Source of the DNA: Symbiobacterium thermophilum
GTDB lineage: Bacteria; Bacillota; Sulfobacillia; DYFQ01
NCBI GenBank assembly: GCA_020725105.1
Contig: DYFQ01000021.1
Coordinates: forward strand, 9,016 to 44,670
Direction of reading: 5' to 3'
Length of the DNA stretch: 35,655 bases
The notes below the pieces were generated by a model that worked only from the letters and a program-made list of their open reading frames with translations, was not told the DNA's origin and ran no database searches. Below are positions 21,318 through 33,671 of the stretch, one piece after another (positions within the stretch are counted from its first letter, which is position 1; each line of letters begins with the position of its first letter). A program made the translations under genes and the position numbers.

Positions 21318-22850
21318 TCAGGCCCGGTCCGGATCGATGGGCCGCAGGATCTCCGGCCTGCGGCCGCGCTCGGGGGTCGGCCCGCGCACGAGGATTCGCC
21401 ACAGGGCGCGGCCGTTGAACGGCAGGAGCGGCCACAGGTACGGCACGCCGAAGGAGCGCAACGACGCCAGGAACAGGAAGGTGGCGAGCACGCCGATGGC
21501 CAGCCCGGGCAGCTTCCAGAAGCCCGCCAGCAAGAGCAGGACGAAACGGCTCAGGCGCAGGGCCTGGGCCATCTCCATGTTGGGCGTGGCGAACTGGCCC
21601 AGGATGGCCAGGGCGAAGTAGATGATCACCTCGTTGGTGAGGATGCCGGCTCTCACCGCCAGGTCGGACACGAGAATGGCACCAAAGAACCCCAGCCCCG
21701 TTGAAAGGGCCCCCGGAGTGTGAATGAGGGCGATGCGGATGATGTCGCCAAAGATGTCGATGATGATGAACTGCGCGAACAGCGACAGCCGCGTCGGGTC
21801 CTTGGGGCCGATGAACTCGAAAGCCGGACCCAGGATGTCCCTGGACAAGGACAGCGCCAGGTAAAGGGGCATGGCCAGCCAGGACAGGGCCATGGCAATC
21901 ATCCGCACCCACCGGGTGACCGCCCCCGGCAGCGCCTCTTCCCGGAACTCCTGGGCGTGCTGGAGGTGGTGCCAGAAGGTGGCGGGCAGGAGAATGGCGC
22001 TCGGGGTCGAGTCGATCACCAGCGCGACGTGACCCTCGTACAGGTGCACCGCCGCCACGTCCGGCCGCTCGGTGAAGCGGACGGTGGGAAAGGGGTTCCA
22101 GCGCTTCTCGGGGCCGACCAGAAACTCCTGCAGCGGCTTCTCGGCCATGGGAATGCCGTCCACCCGGATCTCCCGCAACCGCCGGCGCACCTCGTCCACC
22201 AGGTCCGGATCGGCGATGTCCTGGATGTAGCAGAGGGCGACGTCGGTCTTGGACCGGCGGCCGACCCGCAGGAGTTCTACCCGCAGGCCCGGGTCACGGA
22301 CCCGGCGGCGGATGAGGGCGGTGTTGAAAATGATGGTCTCGACGAAACTGTCCCGGGAGCCACGGAGTACCCGTTCCAGGTCCGGCTCCTCGGGGTTCCG
22401 GATGGGATACTCGCGGATGTCGATGACGATGGCCTGATCACAGCCGTCGACCAGCAGGATCATGGGGCCCATCAGCACCGTCTCGATGACCTCGTCCAGC
22501 GTCTTGACGACCTTCACCTCGATGAAGTTGAGGTGTTCCTTCATGATCCGGTCGACGGGGTCGATGGCCAGGTCTTCCCGGCGGATGGCCAGCAACCGGT
22601 CGAGAACCCGCTGGCCGGCGATCTCGTTGACGAAGCCATCAACAAAGAGCAGCGCACCGTCGCGGCCGGCCATTGCGAACTCGCGCACGACGATGTCAAA
22701 GGAGACGCCCACACCCAGTTCGTCCCGGATCACCGCCAGGTTGTCCTTGAGCTCCGGGGTGATGGGGCGCTTGCCGGGCAGGGCCTCGGACTCGGGTGGC
22801 TCCCGGCCGCGCAACTGGCGCCCCGACCTGAGGCGCCTAATGGGACTCAC
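21318..22850 (-). CDS. spoVAF: Stage V sporulation protein AF (GerA-like membrane protein)
   Basis: A 510-residue member of the GerA/SpoVAF family. The N-terminal soluble half carries PITPELKDNLAVIRDELG, YIQDIADPDLVDEVRRRL and ADVAAVHLYEGHVALVIDSTP-like segments. The C-terminal half has about five helices, with RWVRMIAMALSWLAMPLYLAL, IGPKDPTRLSLFAQF and GQFATPNMEMAQALRLSRF. Position as the last gene after spoVAEA marks it as SpoVAF rather than a GerAA receptor subunit. In Bacillus it works with FigP to amplify germinant-triggered ion release. GTG at 22850 has AGGAGGG seven bases upstream and overlaps the spoVAEA end. Confidence 0.94.
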   Translation of the reverse strand: MSPIRRLRSGRQLRGREPPESEALPGKRPITPELKDNLAVIRDELGVGVSFDIVVREFAMAGRDGALLFVDGFVNEIAGQRVLDRLLAIRREDLAIDPVDRIMKEHLNFIEVKVVKTLDEVIETVLMGPMILLVDGCDQAIVIDIREYPIRNPEEPDLERVLRGSRDSFVETIIFNTALIRRRVRDPGLRVELLRVGRRSKTDVALCYIQDIADPDLVDEVRRRLREIRVDGIPMAEKPLQEFLVGPEKRWNPFPTVRFTERPDVAAVHLYEGHVALVIDSTPSAILLPATFWHHLQHAQEFREEALPGAVTRWVRMIAMALSWLAMPLYLALSLSRDILGPAFEFIGPKDPTRLSLFAQFIIIDIFGDIIRIALIHTPGALSTGLGFFGAILVSDLAVRAGILTNEVIIYFALAILGQFATPNMEMAQALRLSRFVLLLLAGFWKLPGLAIGVLATFLFLASLRSFGVPYLWPLLPFNGRALWRILVRGPTPERGRRPEILRPIDPDRA

Positions 22851-23424
22851 GCCGCGACCCTCCTCTTGCCTCTCCCGCCCGGTCCAGCACTTCCCGGAGG
22901 GCCTTCACCGTGAGCGGGGCGCCCCGGCCGGCGTCGTCGCGGCCGTCCATCTTGCCCGGATCACCCAGCCCCACCACCACGGGAATCCTGAGCCGCTGGA
23001 GCACGTCTACCGTGTCTCCCTTCACGACGCGCCGGTCCAGCAGGTGGCCGTGCTTGTCGACGGCCCGGGGCGCCACCCGTCCCCGGCGGTCGACGGACAC
23101 GTCCACCGGCGTCCCGCGCACCGGCCGGGTGTCCGACGCCACGGCGACGGCGCCCAGGATCTCCAGACGGTCGTCCCGGGCCAGTTCTTCCAGGGCCCGC
23201 TCCCCCCGGTCCCGATCGGGCTCCCCGTCGTCGTCCAGCATCACCACGACCGGGTCGTCAGCCGCCGACAGCGCCAGTTCGGCCAGGGCCCGTCCGGAAA
23301 GGGGGGTGGGGTTGCCGGCCGACCTGGAGATGCAGAACAGTCCCAACCGGCGGCAGGCTACCTCCACTGCGCGTCTGGCTGCCTCGTCCCCGTCGGTCAC
23401 CAGGATCACCCGGCGGCGCTGCAT
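22837..23424 (-). CDS. spoVAEA: Stage V sporulation protein AE, soluble part (SpoVAEA)
   Basis: A 195-residue soluble protein starting MQRRRVILVTDGDEAARRAV, followed by CISRSAGNPTPLSG, VVVMLDDDGEPDRDRGERAL, ILGAVAVASDT and PVVVGLGDPGKMDGRDD. All are the conserved blocks of SpoVAEA, which in Bacillus sits on the outer face of the spore inner membrane. ATG at 23424 has GGGAGGGGAG upstream; the open frame extends further but into spoVAEB. It overlaps spoVAF by 14 bases and follows spoVAEB by 14 bases, fifth in the operon. Its biochemical role in dipicolinate movement is not established. Confidence 0.94.
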   Translation of the reverse strand: MQRRRVILVTDGDEAARRAVEVACRRLGLFCISRSAGNPTPLSGRALAELALSAADDPVVVMLDDDGEPDRDRGERALEELARDDRLEILGAVAVASDTRPVRGTPVDVSVDRRGRVAPRAVDKHGHLLDRRVVKGDTVDVLQRLRIPVVVGLGDPGKMDGRDDAGRGAPLTVKALREVLDRAGEARGGSRRESH

Positions 23425-23438
23425 CCGCTCCCCTCCCG

Positions 23439-23792
23439 CTACCCCTTGGGGTTGAACAGCGCGGCCACCAGCCACCCGAAGAGGATGGCCGAGGTTATGC
23501 CCCACGCGGCGGCCGTCAGCCCGCCGGTGAACACGGCGATGAAGCCCCTGGTGTCCACGTCCTCCATTATGCCCTGGAACACGGCGTTGCCGAAGGACGG
23601 CAGCGGCACCATGGCACCCGCGCCGGCAAACTCCACCAGGGGCTGGTACAGGCCCAGGCCCCCCGCCACGGCCCCGAGCACGACGAAGAGGACCATGACG
23701 TGGGCGGCCGTCAGCCTGGTAAGGTCCAGCACCAGCTGGGCCAGGACGCACATGAGCCCGCCCACCACGAAGGCCACCGCGTAGCTGCTCAC
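23439..23792 (-). CDS. spoVAEB: Stage V sporulation protein AE, membrane part (SpoVAEB)
   Basis: A 117-residue protein with about four membrane helices, one of the conserved SpoVA subunits needed for calcium-dipicolinate uptake into the forespore and release at germination. Conserved stretches are AFVVGGLMCVLAQLVLD, GAMVPLPSFGNAVFQGIMEDV and GITSAILFGWLVALF-like ending. It is homologous to SpoVAC. GTG at 23792 overlaps the spoVAD stop (GTGA) and has AGGAGG just upstream. Confidence 0.95.
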   Translation of the reverse strand: MSSYAVAFVVGGLMCVLAQLVLDLTRLTAAHVMVLFVVLGAVAGGLGLYQPLVEFAGAGAMVPLPSFGNAVFQGIMEDVDTRGFIAVFTGGLTAAAWGITSAILFGWLVAALFNPKG

Positions 23793-24901
23793 CGGTCCTC
23801 CTCCTGGCCCGGCCGCCGGGCCTCCAGCACCACGGCGTGGGCGATGCAGGGGATGGTCTCGCCCTGCTGGTAGGTGGTGACGCTGTGCAGCGACCCGGTG
23901 CAGACCAGCAGCACCCGCCGGGCGTTCCCCCGGGACAGGACGTTCATGATGTACCCCGCCACCACCGTCGCCGAGCACCCGCAGCCGGACCCGCCGGCGT
24001 GCACGTCCTGGCCGGACTGCTTGTAGATCATGGCGCCGCAGTCCAGGGCCCGGTCCCCCACGTCCAGCCCGTTCTCCTTCAGGAGGTCCACCAGGATGGC
24101 CGAGCCGATGTGGGCCAGGTCCCCGGTGACGATCAGGTCGTAGTCCTCGGGCCGCCGGTGGGTATCGGCCAGGTGCTGCCAGATGGTGTCGGCCGCCGCG
24201 GGAGCCATGGCCGATCCCATGTCATACGGGTCCTTCAGACCCATGTCCACCACCCGGCCCAGGGTGGCGTGGGTGATCACCGGGCCGTCTCCCTCGGCGC
24301 CCACCACGAAGGCGCCCGCCCCCGTCACCGTCCACTGGGCGGTAGGTGGCCGCTGGCTGGCAAACTCCGTCGGCAGCCGGTACTGGCGCTCGGCGGTGTC
24401 GTGGTGGCTGCAGCACCCCACCAGGCACCATCGGCCAAAGCCGCCGTCCAGGATCATGCCGGCCACGGCGAGCCCCTGGGCCAGGGTGGCGCAGGCCGAG
24501 AACTGGCCGAGCGCCGGGATGTCCAGAGTCCGGGCGGCCATGTGGGTGCAGGTGATCTGGTTGAGCAGGTCACCGGCCAGGATCCAGTCGACCTGGCGGT
24601 GCTGCAGGCCGGCCTTTTTCAGGGCCAGTTCCGAGGCTTCGATCATCATCCGGACCTCGGCCCGTTCCCAGCTCTTCTCCCCCATCAGTACGTTCTCGGT
24701 GACCACGTCGAAGTGCTCGGCCAGCGGGCCCTTGCCTTCCATGGGCCCCACCACTGAAGCCGCGCTGACGATGGCCGGCGGGTGAGAGAATATAACTGTC
24801 TGCTTGCCCAGCCGCCTGGGGGCCCGCTGCGGGGTCCGGCGGGCCGTCCGGCGATCCGCTCCGGCCTCCCCCTCGGCGAGAACAGGCCCGCGGCCGTCCA
24901 C
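23789..24901 (-). CDS. spoVAD: Stage V sporulation protein AD
   Basis: A soluble thiolase-fold protein that binds dipicolinic acid and is part of the SpoVA uptake machinery. Family blocks are GKQTVIFSHPPAIVSAASVVG, ILAGDLLNQITCTHMAAR, FSACATLAQGLAVA, DMGSAMAPAAADTIWQHL, YDLIVTGDLAHIGSAIL and AGGSGCGCSATVVAGYI. From GTG 24901 it is 370 residues, about 30 longer than Bacillus SpoVAD; the extra Arg/Ala-rich N-terminus has no homologous look. No ATG, GTG or TTG lies nearer the conserved start, only CTG. GGAGGGG ten bases before 24901 supports that GTG, which lies two bases after the spoVAC stop. Confidence 0.94.
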   Translation of the reverse strand: MDGRGPVLAEGEAGADRRTARRTPQRAPRRLGKQTVIFSHPPAIVSAASVVGPMEGKGPLAEHFDVVTENVLMGEKSWERAEVRMMIEASELALKKAGLQHRQVDWILAGDLLNQITCTHMAARTLDIPALGQFSACATLAQGLAVAGMILDGGFGRWCLVGCCSHHDTAERQYRLPTEFASQRPPTAQWTVTGAGAFVVGAEGDGPVITHATLGRVVDMGLKDPYDMGSAMAPAAADTIWQHLADTHRRPEDYDLIVTGDLAHIGSAILVDLLKENGLDVGDRALDCGAMIYKQSGQDVHAGGSGCGCSATVVAGYIMNVLSRGNARRVLLVCTGSLHSVTTYQQGETIPCIAHAVVLEARRPGQEEDR

Positions 24902-24903
24902 GG

Positions 24904-25377
24904 CTAGGGTGCCCCTCCGGTGCCGGTGAGACCCAGCACGATGCGGATGGTGGCCATGGCCACGGCAGCCACCATGCCATACACGACCACCGGGCCGGCG
25001 ATCTGGAACAGCCGCTGGCCGATTCCGAAGACGTAGCCTTCCCGCTTGAACTCAAGGGCCGGGGCGGTGATGGCGTTGGCGAAGCCGCTGATGGGCAGGG
25101 CCGCCCCCATGCCCCCGATCCGGCCGATGTCGTCGTAGACGCCAAGCCCGGTCAGGAGGGCCCCCATGGCCACCAGCACCGCCAGGGCGGGCCCGGTCGC
25201 CTCCTTCAGAGGCAGGCCCTGAACCATGAACAGGTTCAGCAGCCCCTGGCCGATGGCGCAGATGGTCCCCCCGACCAGGAACGCCAGAACGCAGTTTCTC
25301 AGCACCGGGCGGGGCGGGTGGTACTGCCGGACAAAGGCCTGGTACCGCCGGGCCTGTTCCCGGGACGCCTGGACCAT
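24904..25377 (-). CDS. spoVAC: Stage V sporulation protein AC
   Basis: A 157-residue integral membrane protein, the SpoVA subunit reported to act as a mechanosensitive channel for dipicolinate release. Conserved blocks are RNCVLAFLVGGTICAIGQGL, GLGVYDDIGRIGGMGAALPISGFANAI, the FKREGYVFGIGQRLFQIAGPVVVYG segment, and a last helix. ATG at 25377 gives the usual N-terminus with the YQAFVRQYHPPRPVLRN segment; a ribosome site is weak. It starts nine bases after the membrane-dodecin gene, where spoVAA and spoVAB stand in Bacillus. Confidence 0.95.
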   Translation of the reverse strand: MVQASREQARRYQAFVRQYHPPRPVLRNCVLAFLVGGTICAIGQGLLNLFMVQGLPLKEATGPALAVLVAMGALLTGLGVYDDIGRIGGMGAALPISGFANAITAPALEFKREGYVFGIGQRLFQIAGPVVVYGMVAAVAMATIRIVLGLTGTGGAP

Positions 25378-25386
25378 TGCCGCCCG

Positions 25387-25782
25387 TCACGCCGTCGGCC
25401 GGGCCTGGCGCCGGCTGTTGTCCACCACGAATGCTACCTTGACGTTGGCCCGGTACTGCCGGATGTCGCCGTTGGAGACCTCGGCGGTCCAGTTCACCAC
25501 CTCCATGCCGGTGATGTGGTCCACCGTCCGGGCGGCTTCCTGAACCGCGTTACGGGCCGCCTCCTGCCAGCTTGCGGGGGACTCGCCCACCAGTTCGAGG
25601 ACCTTGACCACGCTCATCCTGGCATCCTCCCTGCGCGTGATGAATCCAGCCTCCACCAGGGTGGCGCCGGGGGGCACCCGTTCCTCCATGAAGCGCCGGG
25701 CCGACAGGATCCACCAGCCCGCGACGGCCAGGACCAGCAGGAAAACGACCAGCACCAACCGCCGGGAGCCTGTCCTGAGCAC
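25387..25782 (-). CDS. Membrane-anchored dodecin at the head of the spoVA operon
   Basis: A 131-residue protein: one N-terminal membrane helix (LVLVVFLLVLAVAGWWIL, residues 9-26), a linker of about 30 residues, then a complete dodecin domain (56-124) starting MSVVKVLELVGES and ending NVKVAFVVD. Dodecins are 65-75-residue proteins that form twelve-subunit shells. The Trp and Gln that stack on flavin in archaeal and mycobacterial dodecins are replaced (GMEV for the WFEV-type motif, YRANVKV for the FQVTMKV-type motif), so flavin binding is doubtful. GTG at 25782 has GGGGAGG seven bases upstream. An internal ATG at 25617 also has its own GGGAGG eight bases upstream and would give a plain 76-residue dodecin. 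A sigma-G-type promoter precedes the gene. Confidence 0.82.
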   Translation of the reverse strand: MLRTGSRRLVLVVFLLVLAVAGWWILSARRFMEERVPPGATLVEAGFITRREDARMSVVKVLELVGESPASWQEAARNAVQEAARTVDHITGMEVVNWTAEVSNGDIRQYRANVKVAFVVDNSRRQARPTA

Positions 25783-25817
25783 GGGAGCACCTCCCCGGAG
25801 GCACCGTCGAGGCGTGG

Positions 25818-25833
25818 GCGCCCCTTGGGGCGC
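25818..25833. repeat. Small inverted repeat in the spoVA leader
   Basis: GCGCCCC-TT-GGGGCGC, seven bases per arm, at the expected start of the spoVA transcript. It could be a leader hairpin or the end of the sigF transcript; no T-run follows. Confidence 0.4.
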
Positions 25834-25839
25834 GTGCCG

Positions 25840-25869
25840 TAGTATGCTCCGGCACGCAGGCGGCTATGC
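25840..25869 (-). promoter_or_regulatory. Sigma-G-type promoter of the spoVA operon
   Basis: On the minus strand GCATA (25865-25869), exactly 18 bases, then CATACTA (25840-25846). This is a full match to the forespore sigma-G pattern. Transcription would start about 50 bases before the membrane-dodecin gene and run through spoVAC-AD-AEB-AEA-AF. In Bacillus the spoVA operon is sigma-G dependent. Confidence 0.8.
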
Positions 25870-25901: not shown

Positions 25902-26600
25902 TTATGGCGCCAGTTGCCGGCGCAGGCTTTCGAGGGCGGCACGCTCGATGCGGGAAACCTGAGACTGGGACAGGCCCAGCGCGCCGGCCACCTCCACCTG
26001 GGTGGCGTCGCGGAAGTAGCGCCAGTAGAGAATCTGCCGCTGGCGGGGGGTCAGCCGGCGCAGGGCGTCGCGGAGGACGACGGTTTCCTCGGCGGCGGGA
26101 CCGGGCGAGGCCAGCAGTTCCCCTAGCGGCGACGGCTGGCCCGAACGGGCGGGAGCGTCCAGCGACAGCGGGGGTCTTGTGGTTTCCCAGGCCTCCACCA
26201 GTTCGGCGGCCTCGACTCCGACGGTGGAAGCCAGTTCGGGCAGGGTGGGCTCGCGGCCATGGGTTGCCCTCAGCCGGTCGCGGGCGGCTTCGGCGCGCCG
26301 TGCCAGTTCGCGTGGCCGCCGGCCCGCCGGCTGGAGCCCCTGGTCCCGCAGCGCCCGGGCCATTTGGCCAACGATCACCCGGGCGGCGTAGTGCTGGAAC
26401 GGCACGCCGTAGCGCGGGTCGTAGCGCCCGGCGGCCAGCAACAAGCCCTCGCAACCGGCCTGGACCAGGTCGGCCGGCTCACCCCGGCCCGCCAGGCGGC
26501 CCGCCAGTGCCCGTACCAGGGGCAGGAAGTTTTCCACCAGCCGCTCCCTGGCTCTCGGGTCTCCCTGCCGGCCCCGGAGCAGGTGCCGATCAGAGCCCAC
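25902..26600 (-). CDS. sigF: RNA polymerase sigma factor SigF (forespore)
   Basis: The early forespore sigma factor, about 232 residues. Region 2 contains DLVQAGCEGLLLAAGRYDPRYGVPFQHYAA-type sequence, region 3 HGREPTLPELASTVGVEAAEL, and region 4 RQRQILYWRYFRDATQVEVAGALGLSQSQVSRIE. GTG at 26600 follows the spoIIAB stop by 11 bases and has a GAGGCGAG ribosome site within it; the longer open frame would overlap spoIIAB. It is the third gene of spoIIAA-spoIIAB-sigF, held inactive by SpoIIAB until asymmetric division. SigG is the alternative from sequence alone, but the operon position favours SigF. Confidence 0.93.
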   Translation of the reverse strand: MGSDRHLLRGRQGDPRARERLVENFLPLVRALAGRLAGRGEPADLVQAGCEGLLLAAGRYDPRYGVPFQHYAARVIVGQMARALRDQGLQPAGRRPRELARRAEAARDRLRATHGREPTLPELASTVGVEAAELVEAWETTRPPLSLDAPARSGQPSPLGELLASPGPAAEETVVLRDALRRLTPRQRQILYWRYFRDATQVEVAGALGLSQSQVSRIERAALESLRRQLAP

Positions 26601-26611
26601 TCCGGCTCGCC

Positions 26612-27133
26612 TCAGTCGGAGTCGTCTGGCCTCGGGTGGGCGGGGCCCGGGCCGGCGCCGGCGAAGTCCCACTGGACCTGGTCGGGCACCTCGGCTCTGG
26701 GTTCGGACCCGACGCGCTTGCGCATGCGAACCGTCGTGCCCTCGCCCGGCCGGGAGGCCACCTCCACCAGGTCCATGAAGGCCTCCATGAACACGAACCC
26801 CATGCCCATCCGGTCCGGCAGGGTTGAAAAGCCGGTCTGGCGCGCCCGGTCCACGTCATCGATGCCCCGGCCCCGGTCTTCCACGGTCAGTTCCAGTTCC
26901 CCGTCAACGAGCGCGGCACGAATCCGGACCGTTCCGGGCTCGCCCGGCGGATACGCGTGCAACACGGCGTTGGACACGGCCTCGGAGACGGCAAGCTTGA
27001 TATCTTCCAGGTCGTTGAGGGTGAACTCCAGCTGGGCGGCGAAGGCGGCCACCGCCACCCGGGCCACGCCGACGTTGGTCGCCAGCCCGGGAAGCTCGAG
27101 GATGATCCAGTTGTTCGCCTGGCCCGCCGTCAC
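26612..27133 (-). CDS. spoIIAB: Anti-sigma F factor and SpoIIAA kinase
   Basis: A GHKL-type serine kinase that binds sigma-F and phosphorylates SpoIIAA. It has the N box EAVSNAVLHAYPPGEPGTV, the G1 box VEDRGRGIDDVDRARQ and the G2 region MGMGFVFMEAFMD, then GEGTTVRMRKRVG. The 173-residue length is about 25 longer than in Bacillus because of an acidic/Pro-rich C-terminal tail. The GTG start overlaps the spoIIAA stop (GTGA), giving coupled synthesis of the partner switch pair. Confidence 0.95.
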   Translation of the reverse strand: MTAGQANNWIILELPGLATNVGVARVAVAAFAAQLEFTLNDLEDIKLAVSEAVSNAVLHAYPPGEPGTVRIRAALVDGELELTVEDRGRGIDDVDRARQTGFSTLPDRMGMGFVFMEAFMDLVEVASRPGEGTTVRMRKRVGSEPRAEVPDQVQWDFAGAGPGPAHPRPDDSD

Positions 27134-31381: not shown

Positions 31382-33055
31382 TCACCGCAAGACCAAGGCC
31401 AGGATCTTGAGATTGCCCCAGACGGAGCTCCACCCCTCCTGCCTCCAGCGGCAAAGCCCGTTGTACAGGAGGAGCTTTCCGTCCAGGCGCCCCAGGCTGG
31501 CCCAGACCCTGCGGGTCATCCCTGTTCCTTCCCTCGGAAGGGATCCGACCTTTTGGGTCAAGGTCCGCTTGATCAGAGCGACCTTCTCTTTGATCTCCCG
31601 CGTCACCCGCTCCCGGAACCCCAGGGCGCGGCGGCCTACAGCCAGCGCCGCCGCGCAGTGGACCGGGACGGCGTGACGTTGCGCGTACTTCCAGTGTCCG
31701 ATCACGGAGGTGTGCCGGGCGGGCACCGCCTTGAACCCGACCCGCTCCCTGGCCGCCCGGCGGCAGACCGCCTCCGCGACCTTGGCGTACGGGAAGTTGG
31801 ACGCCATGCGGTTGAAGCCGCGGTCCGTGTCCATCCGCCCCTGGCTGAAATCCAGCCCCTCCAGGGCGAGGGGCTTCCCCAGCCGCTCGGCCGCTTCCAC
31901 GACCGCCTTGGCCAGGACGCCGATGAGGTAATCCCGCCTTGCGCTCCGGGCGTATCCGAGGTCCGGGATGCGGAGGTAGCCAAAGCCGTTTTTGTGCAGG
32001 ACCGCCTGGAACTCCCCCGGGAACTTCCCGAGGCCGGCCGGCAAGGCGATCTCAAACCCCTCCGGCCAGGGCTCCGGCTGGCCGTCCGGACTGACGTTGC
32101 ACAGAGCCACGCCGTCGGGGTTGATGTCAAGGCCGATCATGCCCCGGGACAGGTCCGGCGCCGGGACTTCTCCCAGGTCGAACGCCAGCCGCAGGATGAA
32201 GCGGCCGTCCGGCTGCCGCGCAAGCTCCGCCGAGTACGGGAGACCGGCCGCCAGCCACAAGCGCACGAGGTCCCGGTGCTTCTGGGGAAGCCACACCCGC
32301 CCTTCCACCCTCGGCGCCCGGGTCATCTTCGAGCGGCCCAGAGCGTCGGCACCGCGCTCCTCCGACAGGTGGGAGATGACGACCGACAGGCGGAACTCCC
32401 CGCCCCGGTGGGAGACCTTCACGTTCGGGTTCCCGCCCTTGGTCTCGTCGCCGCGGGAGAAGAGCCTGCCCTTCCTGGCGGCGTGCCACTCCTCCAGCGT
32501 GGCGCGCCCCTTGCACACCTGCTGCCAGAGCTTCCGCCCGCCGAAGACCACCGGCGGCACGGTGCCGTTCTCCTGGTGCTTCTTGAGACCGGCCAGCTTC
32601 CTCTCCAGGGAGGCGACCCGGGCTTTCCGCCCGTTCACCGCCCGCCGGAGGCGCTCCGCCTTCTGGCAATCGCTGCAGCGCGCCAGTTTTTGCTCGGCAA
32701 GGCGCAGCTTCCGCCTCGCACGGCGGAGCTTTTCCTCGGCGTCCCCCATCTCAACCTCCAGCAACGCCTTCCGCGACTCCAGCATGGCCTGGGTCCTGAG
32801 CCGGGCGTCGTCCGCGTAGCGGGAGTTAAGGCCGAAAAGCGATTGAGCCCGCCTCTTCACCTCGTCGCGGGAAACACCCTCCAGCAGCCGGTTGAAGGCC
32901 CAGCGCTCGCACGCGCAGAAGAGGCGCATTTCGGTCAGGAGGGGGTCCTCTTCGCCCCGGCTCCACTCTGGAGACCGGAAAGCTGGGTAGACCTCCGGGA
33001 AGAACTCGCCGCAGACTGTCACGACAACGTTCTCGTCATCCCGCCTTTTCAGCAT
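31382..33055 (-). CDS. tnpB: TnpB-related protein with atypical RuvC-like domain
   Basis: A 557-residue protein, longer than the usual 370-430 of TnpB. Residues about 85-165 are charged and probably coiled coil, with a CSDC motif. RuvC motif I is MIGLDINPDGVAL (Asp310) and motif II is LALEGLDFSQG (Glu399). The usual C-terminal zinc ribbon (CPxC...CxxC) is absent. In place of the motif III 'DxNAA' there is HTSVIGHWKYA and VPVHCAAALAVGRRALGF (His466, Cys467). This resembles the group annotated as TnpB-related accessory proteins. Typical TnpB is an RNA-guided nuclease; activity here is uncertain. ATG at 33055 overlaps tnpA by 20 bases. Confidence 0.85.
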   Translation of the reverse strand: MLKRRDDENVVVTVCGEFFPEVYPAFRSPEWSRGEEDPLLTEMRLFCACERWAFNRLLEGVSRDEVKRRAQSLFGLNSRYADDARLRTQAMLESRKALLEVEMGDAEEKLRRARRKLRLAEQKLARCSDCQKAERLRRAVNGRKARVASLERKLAGLKKHQENGTVPPVVFGGRKLWQQVCKGRATLEEWHAARKGRLFSRGDETKGGNPNVKVSHRGGEFRLSVVISHLSEERGADALGRSKMTRAPRVEGRVWLPQKHRDLVRLWLAAGLPYSAELARQPDGRFILRLAFDLGEVPAPDLSRGMIGLDINPDGVALCNVSPDGQPEPWPEGFEIALPAGLGKFPGEFQAVLHKNGFGYLRIPDLGYARSARRDYLIGVLAKAVVEAAERLGKPLALEGLDFSQGRMDTDRGFNRMASNFPYAKVAEAVCRRAARERVGFKAVPARHTSVIGHWKYAQRHAVPVHCAAALAVGRRALGFRERVTREIKEKVALIKRTLTQKVGSLPREGTGMTRRVWASLGRLDGKLLLYNGLCRWRQEGWSSVWGNLKILALVLR

Positions 33056-33671
33056 CTTCGATCAGCTCCCGAAGGCCCTGCCGGATTTTCCGGCCGCCCC
33101 TGGCGCCGTACAACCGGGCTGAGAAGGAAGTGACTATGGCCAGCAGGTCTTTCACAAGCTCCGCGTGGCTGTCTTCCGGCTCCTTCTGTGACGTGACCTC
33201 TATCTCCACGCCACAGTGCCTCAAGTGCCTCTCCAAATAGGCATAACCGAAGCGGGCCAGCCGGTCGGGGTATTCGATGAGCAGTTTCTTGAACTCGCCC
33301 CGCTCCGCCGCTTTCAGCACCCGCTCCAGCCCTCTGCGGTTCTGGTTGAGGCCAGAAGCCACGTCGGTGTGCTCGCCCGCCACCTGATAGCCTCTCTCCC
33401 TGGCATACACCCGCAACCTCTCAAGCTGCCGCTCCAAGTTTTTGGCATCCGCCTGCTTCTTTGTGGACACCCTGGCGTACAGTACTGCGGTTTCCGCCTC
33501 GGCTGCCACCCCGCCTGACCGCAGGATGCGTTCTATTTCAGACAGCGGATAGCGCCGCACGCCCGAGGGCAGGCGCACAGGCTTGATCAGCCCCCGCTTT
33601 TCCCACGCCCGCAGGCGCTGCGGATGCACCCCCAACATCCGGGCCGCTTGGCTAATAGACAGCATTTTCAT
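33036..33671 (-). CDS. tnpA: IS607-family serine recombinase (TnpA)
   Basis: A 211-residue transposase. The N-terminal MerR-type helix-turn-helix is SISQAARMLGVHPQRLRAWE, ending with GVRRYPLSEIERIL. The resolvase-type catalytic domain begins VLYARVSTKKQ with nucleophile Ser69, then GYQVAGEHTDVASGLNQNRRGL and LLIEYPDRLARFGYAYLERHL. Length and domain order are those of IS607 TnpA, which moves the element by a serine-linked synaptic mechanism. ATG at 33671 has no ribosome site but lies six bases after a promoter -10, so the message is probably leaderless. All catalytic features look intact. Confidence 0.94.
   Translation of the reverse strand: MKMLSISQAARMLGVHPQRLRAWEKRGLIKPVRLPSGVRRYPLSEIERILRSGGVAAEAETAVLYARVSTKKQADAKNLERQLERLRVYARERGYQVAGEHTDVASGLNQNRRGLERVLKAAERGEFKKLLIEYPDRLARFGYAYLERHLRHCGVEIEVTSQKEPEDSHAELVKDLLAIVTSFSARLYGARGGRKIRQGLRELIEDAEKAG

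Follow-up and report, generated by a model that had tools for sequence, protein, structure and literature searches.

What would a dodecin, a member of a protein family that typically assembles into hollow shells of 12 subunits, be doing in the operon of the SpoVA channel? SpoVA conducts the solute that gives spores their heat resistance, and the release of this solute starts outgrowth. The question is raised by one small gene in the window, as we call the whole analysed stretch of 35,655 nucleotides from Symbiobacterium thermophilum. The gene and its surroundings contain the following features:

25902 to 26672, minus strand: sigF, upstream of the dodecin gene, with sigma-70 regions 2-4; spoIIAB and spoIIAA lie before it
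25840 to 25869, minus strand: sigma-G-type promoter GCATA-18-CATACTA, exact consensus (-35 GCATA at 25869-25865, spacer of 18 bp, -10 CATACTA at 25846-25840)
25788 to 25796, minus strand: Shine-Dalgarno sequence GGGGAGGTG for the GTG at 25782 (-14.5 kcal/mol)
25387 to 25782, minus strand: full open reading frame of membrane helix, linker and dodecin, 131 amino acids, GTG start
25705 to 25758, minus strand: predicted membrane helix, about residues 9-26 (hydropathy)
25625 to 25631, minus strand: internal Shine-Dalgarno sequence GGGAGGA for the ATG at 25617 (-10.9 kcal/mol)
25387 to 25617, minus strand: standalone dodecin frame from the internal ATG, 76 amino acids, the counterpart of the unfused gene of relatives
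25420 to 25611, minus strand: dodecin domain PF07311 (Pfam E 7.5e-25; best Foldseek match 2vxa)
24904 to 25377, minus strand: spoVAC (PF03862, 2.6e-37)
23789 to 24901, minus strand: spoVAD (PF07451, 2.3e-146)
23439 to 23978, minus strand: spoVAEb (PF03862, 1.5e-31 at residues 66-173; the true start is probably downstream)
22837 to 23751, minus strand: spoVAEa (PF14097, 1.2e-66 at residues 114-292; the true start is probably downstream)
21318 to 22850, minus strand: spoVAF, GerA family (PF03323, 1.2e-143)

The order of the genes is sigF, the dodecin frame, spoVAC, spoVAD, spoVAEb, spoVAEa and spoVAF. Among 112 distinct dodecin loci, 12 are preceded by an exact sigma-G-type promoter, where 0.2 were expected, and with one mismatch allowed the count rose to 36 of 112 (3.2 expected). 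Both the association with the operon and the sigma-G-type promoter are supported at the level of sequence. Elsewhere in the window, positions 31382-33671 (minus strand) resemble an IS607-type element encoding a TnpB-like protein, flanked by pyrimidine phosphorylase and phosphopentomutase genes. Its TnpA (33036-33671, minus strand) combines MerR and resolvase domains (PF00239/PF00376), and the partnering frame of 557 amino acids shows RuvC-like motifs by eye and has no Pfam match.

The Pfam dodecin match spans residues 58-121 of the 131-residue product and reaches 87.5 bits (curated cut-off 22.5 bits), covering 64 of 64 model positions; it is the only PF07311 copy in the window's genome. In the AlphaFold model, residues 5-34 form a confident helix, a disordered linker follows, and residues 58-120 adopt a dodecin fold (pLDDT of 97-99 for this block) in the beta-alpha-beta-beta order (strand 58-68, helix 72-86, strands 90-103 and 106-120). 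The top matches among solved structures are dodecins, with 2vxa first (Foldseek TM 0.92 by target length) and the calcium dodecin 3onr of Mycobacterium tuberculosis among them. The N-terminal extension has a coding-type GC content by codon position (0.69/0.51/0.89), unlike the 119 nt upstream of it (0.64/0.72/0.62). The sequence-only reading of this locus had described a membrane helix and a full dodecin domain in one frame, led into the spoVA operon by a sigma-G-type promoter and provided with good Shine-Dalgarno sequences at both the GTG 25782 and the ATG 25617. All of this was confirmed, by the full-length Pfam match and the AlphaFold model, by the exact promoter consensus and its enrichment across loci, and by the two pairing energies listed above.

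It had also been noted that the Trp and Gln that contact flavin are replaced, which holds for the window protein and far beyond it. At position 37, the site of the flavin-sandwiching Trp, 105 of 108 distinct SpoVA-dodecins have Gly and none has Trp, and the Gln at position 56 is Lys or Arg in 107 of 108. Asn42 and Thr44, in turn, are invariant (108/108). The window protein lacks both hallmarks of a flavin-binding dodecin (Trp to Gly, Gln to Lys/Arg) and scores 48.9 bits, below both cut-offs, 75 and 100, of the NCBIfam dodecin equivalogs (NF043052, NF041389; bacterial and haloarchaeal dodecin). In the tree, the SpoVA-dodecins are split from four PDB dodecins on a branch with support 97/93. The loss of Trp and Gln together with the invariance of Asn42 and Thr44 suggests that another, conserved ligand is likely, and flavin is disfavoured.

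The pairing of dodecin and spoVA is widespread among relatives. In a sample of 61 genomes of the class, 50 carry both dodecin and SpoVAC/Eb, five SpoVA only, six neither and none dodecin alone. Among 399 genomes of the phylum the numbers are 215 with both, two with dodecin only, 124 with SpoVA only and 58 with neither. SpoVAC/Eb thus occurs in 215 of 217 dodecin-bearing versus 124 of 182 dodecin-free genomes (Fisher 3e-20, with kinship ignored), and dodecin was found in 142 of the 268 genera sampled. Among the matches listed, which favour high-scoring genomes, dodecin and SpoVAC/Eb lie at most 1 kb apart in 47 of 62 genome pairs. In 80 named loci, among them the unfused ones of Ammonifex thiophilus and of the Negativicute Anaerospora hongkongensis, dodecin directly precedes spoVAC in 67, a SpoVAF-like gene in 10 and spoVAEa in one; in the remaining two it only follows sigF or stands in another context. 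In loci where spoVS and a dipeptidase gene (PF01244 in locus L099) precede the operon instead of sigF, the operon still comes with dodecin. A strict coupling to spoVAC was rejected, since in some genomes spoVACDEb lies elsewhere and dodecin is still found with spoVAF; the link may therefore be to SpoVAF. Two families of the class have SpoVA and no dodecin was found in them in the 61-genome sample, which indicates that SpoVA does not depend on dodecin in every lineage. In three of five loci of these dodecin-free families, the SpoVA genes follow sigF closely, and the gap holds no recognised gene. Among 14 control genomes, PF07311 matched only in Thermus composti and Haloferax volcanii, and the control Bacillus subtilis gave a SpoVAC/Eb match.

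Several further arrangements were seen around these genes. A spoVS and an M19 dipeptidase-type gene stand ahead of dodecin and the spoVA genes in L078, L083, L099, L108 and L111. A small protein of the holin superfamily (PF04020) lies between dodecin and the SpoVAF-like gene in L120 (4285-4626), L132 and L133, with spoVACDEb elsewhere. Two frames resembling CoA-enzyme activases are located downstream of the SpoVAF-like gene in L096, L115, L120 and L140 (DUF2229 in L115). The dodecin of L037 (1510-1848) carries a long Gln/Gly-rich C-terminal tail. A second dodecin was found in none of the 11 genomes checked; genome G017 has one outside any spoVA operon (L159, 1795-2028), adjoining a DUF401 membrane protein and a folate-ligase-like frame.

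The SpoVAA and SpoVAB models found no match in the window's genome, so that the absence of these two genes stands as first described. The accompanying suggestion that the dodecin occupies their place does not: each of the six class genomes in which SpoVAB was found carries dodecin as well, and L154 and L155 show the order sigF, (peptide), spoVAA, spoVAB, dodecin. As both coexist, we rejected dodecin as a substitute for spoVAA/AB. The proposed search of relatives for helix-plus-dodecin proteins beside spoVAC had a divided outcome. The pairing of dodecin and SpoVA extends across many families, whereas the fusion is restricted to six class genomes; a membrane anchor is not a general feature, most relatives having a dodecin without one and often a separate peptide gene. 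The conserved feature, as judged from these genomes, is dodecin next to spoVA, not the helix-dodecin fusion.

Where does the helix come from? Many relatives have a separate gene between sigF and dodecin, mostly of 49-98 codons, for a one-helix peptide whose helix is followed by a weak P-x-GA-x-LV motif. The helix of the window protein is homologous to this peptide (HMM E 5.8e-12, with the window sequence among the HMM seeds), and the same HMM found further copies at the same place upstream of dodecin in loci outside the seed set. In Pfam and NCBIfam, the peptide family has no convincing match. A separate origin of the helix is thus supported by sequence comparison. In-frame fusions of peptide and dodecin occur in the window (family f1), in three species of one genus (f16), in G033 (f30) and in G013 (f14), that is, in four families. 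In a dodecin tree with few columns and many weak forks, the nearest relatives of f1, f30 and f14 are unfused, which makes three or more independent fusions likely. The idea of a conserved fusion was rejected, as most relatives are unfused. An assembly error is unlikely as a general source, since six genomes of four families carry the fusion, but a single-base error may account for it in the window's genome alone.

At the point that corresponds to the start of unfused dodecins, all four fused lineages retain a start codon with a strong Shine-Dalgarno sequence, with energies of -10.9 (window), -15.0 to -17.3 (f16), -13.9 (G033) and -15.0 kcal/mol (G013). As a background, 272 ATG/GTG codons inside neighbouring genes and in frame with them were scored: 2.2% were at or beyond -10.9 kcal/mol and none attained -13.9 kcal/mol. 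At the upstream start, the window has -14.5 and the other fused lineages only -3.8 to -8.4 kcal/mol. Judged by the strengths at the two starts, all four lineages probably make a soluble dodecin, and the window's lineage is the best candidate for a membrane-anchored one.

On which side of the membrane would these proteins act? SpoVAC and SpoVAEb form the path of dipicolinic acid (DPA) through the inner membrane, with SpoVAD on the cytoplasmic face (PMC13059800). The standalone dodecins have no export signal; if made in the forespore, they would remain on the core side of the membrane, the side to which DPA and calcium are delivered. By the positive-inside charge balance, the helix is predicted to be N-in in 21 of 33 sequences, the opposite in eight and equal in four; the balance of the window helix, +4 against +1, is N-in. 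With this orientation, the fused dodecin would be located outside the core, on the membrane side opposite to the soluble one, in conflict with an anchored dodecin in the cytosol. Both termini of dodecins are exposed on the outer surface of the shell, and tagged and untagged subunits of the M. tuberculosis dodecin co-assemble into heterododecamers (PMC7414021). Hence, by analogy, the mixed shells of soluble and anchored subunits that the sequence-only reading imagined as tethered to the forespore membrane are possible in principle, but the predicted N-in helix speaks against them.

The explanation that we favour, with a probability of about 0.42, is a SpoVA-associated dodecin shell of the forespore that serves SpoVA/SpoVAF and holds a ligand other than flavin, with soluble and anchored products in the fused lineage. 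The sigma-G-type promoter would direct synthesis of the dodecin in the forespore, as the first gene product of the spoVA operon, and the protein probably assembles into a 12-subunit shell. The shell would serve the SpoVA/SpoVAF machinery of the inner membrane, which moves calcium dipicolinate, and would do so most likely from the side of the spore core. Its natural candidate ligands are calcium, DPA or Ca-DPA, and its role may lie in the loading or release of calcium dipicolinate. In the window's lineage, the neighbouring gene of the one-helix membrane peptide appears to have been fused in frame to the dodecin. The original dodecin start was kept with its ribosome-binding site, so that two proteins, one soluble and one membrane-anchored, would be expected. 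The more specific proposal that in much of the deep-branching Bacillota a dedicated dodecin shell, its remodelled flavin pocket holding calcium, DPA or Ca-DPA at SpoVA, aids the loading or release of Ca-DPA, with free and anchored forms in the window's lineage, we regard as unlikely.

Two alternatives concern the fused form. The fusion itself could be incidental, a read-through tail that arose by loss of the stop codon through small indels and is tolerated, only the soluble dodecin being of importance; this touches the fusion alone and can hold alongside the explanation favoured above. Overlap of the peptide gene with the start of dodecin is common among relatives, and in several of them the stop codon of the peptide is at most about 50 nt away from that start or lies beyond it. 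In three of the four fused lineages, the internal Shine-Dalgarno sequence also exceeds the upstream one in strength, and the extension is under weak constraint (dN/dS about 0.6-1 versus about 0.2 for the core in one fused genus). On the other hand, four families carry the fusion, the peptide motif is still in frame and the upstream signal is the stronger one in the window (-14.5 kcal/mol), and we consider an incidental fusion a real possibility, if a somewhat doubtful one. It is highly improbable, in our view, that the fused form caps the channel on its extracytoplasmic face, with the internal start giving a separate cytosolic dodecin. The predicted N-in helix, that of the window included, would fit such a cap, and there is a precedent in NJ2, a partner of SpoVA2 in Bacillus anthracis that is a predicted extracytoplasmic cap and needed for DPA import (PMC13059800). 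However, the standalone dodecins are not exported and the fusion is confined to six class genomes of four families.

The other two alternatives concern the dodecin as such. It might assist the SpoVA/SpoVAF complex structurally or in gating, as a scaffold or regulator on the core side, and have no role in storage. Accessory subunits of SpoVA are known, as SpoVAD on the cytoplasmic face and the predicted cap NJ2 illustrate (PMC13059800), and dodecin stays with spoVAF even where spoVACDEb is elsewhere. The invariant pocket residues N42 and T44 point instead to binding of a ligand, and we find a purely accessory function somewhat unlikely. A cofactor store (flavin or CoA) that the spore carries for its outgrowth would be in line with the description of dodecins as flavin storage and buffering proteins (PMC7414021) and with the clear dodecin fold. 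It appears quite improbable given that the flavin-sandwiching Trp is never present, that Gln is Lys or Arg in 107 of 108 sequences and that the window protein falls under both equivalog cut-offs (48.9 bits versus 75 and 100). Moreover, such a store leaves the tie to spoVA unexplained.

The open-access literature searched gave nothing relevant on a link of dodecin to spoVA or to spores, endospores and sporulation. Dodecins as well as accessory proteins of SpoVA are known kinds of proteins; new is a dodecin that regularly accompanies SpoVA and has recurrently been fused to a membrane peptide. In a large and poorly studied branch of spore formers, the genes of the calcium dipicolinate channel are usually accompanied by a gene for a dodecin-type shell. 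How DPA moves through SpoVA is still an open question (PMC13059800). A conserved extra partner offers a new handle on this movement, and its small product should be easy to purify and assay. The pairing allows a direct test of what helps spores to load or release their core solute, and it hints at a role of dodecins outside flavin storage. It also provides a case of a small membrane-peptide gene that was recurrently fused to its neighbour with the old start retained.

Compared with known systems, the window protein shares the fold and the full-length domain with the flavin dodecins (PF07311) of H. salinarum, H. halophila (2vxa), T. thermophilus and Streptomyces, but differs from them in the missing flavin Trp and Gln, the genomic context, the separate branch and the score under both NCBIfam cut-offs. 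The calcium dodecin Rv0379 of M. tuberculosis (3onr), its second-best sequence match in the PDB (4.1e-8), likewise lacks the flavin Trp and has Tyr-Arg at the Gln site; it comes from a bacterium that does not form endospores. The spoVA operon of B. subtilis (spoVAA to spoVAF) has the core genes C, D, Eb, Ea and F in common with the operon described here and lacks the dodecin. NJ2 of B. anthracis SpoVA2 resembles the SpoVA-dodecin in being a locus-specific extra partner of the SpoVA core, but it is a lipoprotein of the YhcN/YlaJ type on the extracytoplasmic face and not a dodecin (PMC13059800).
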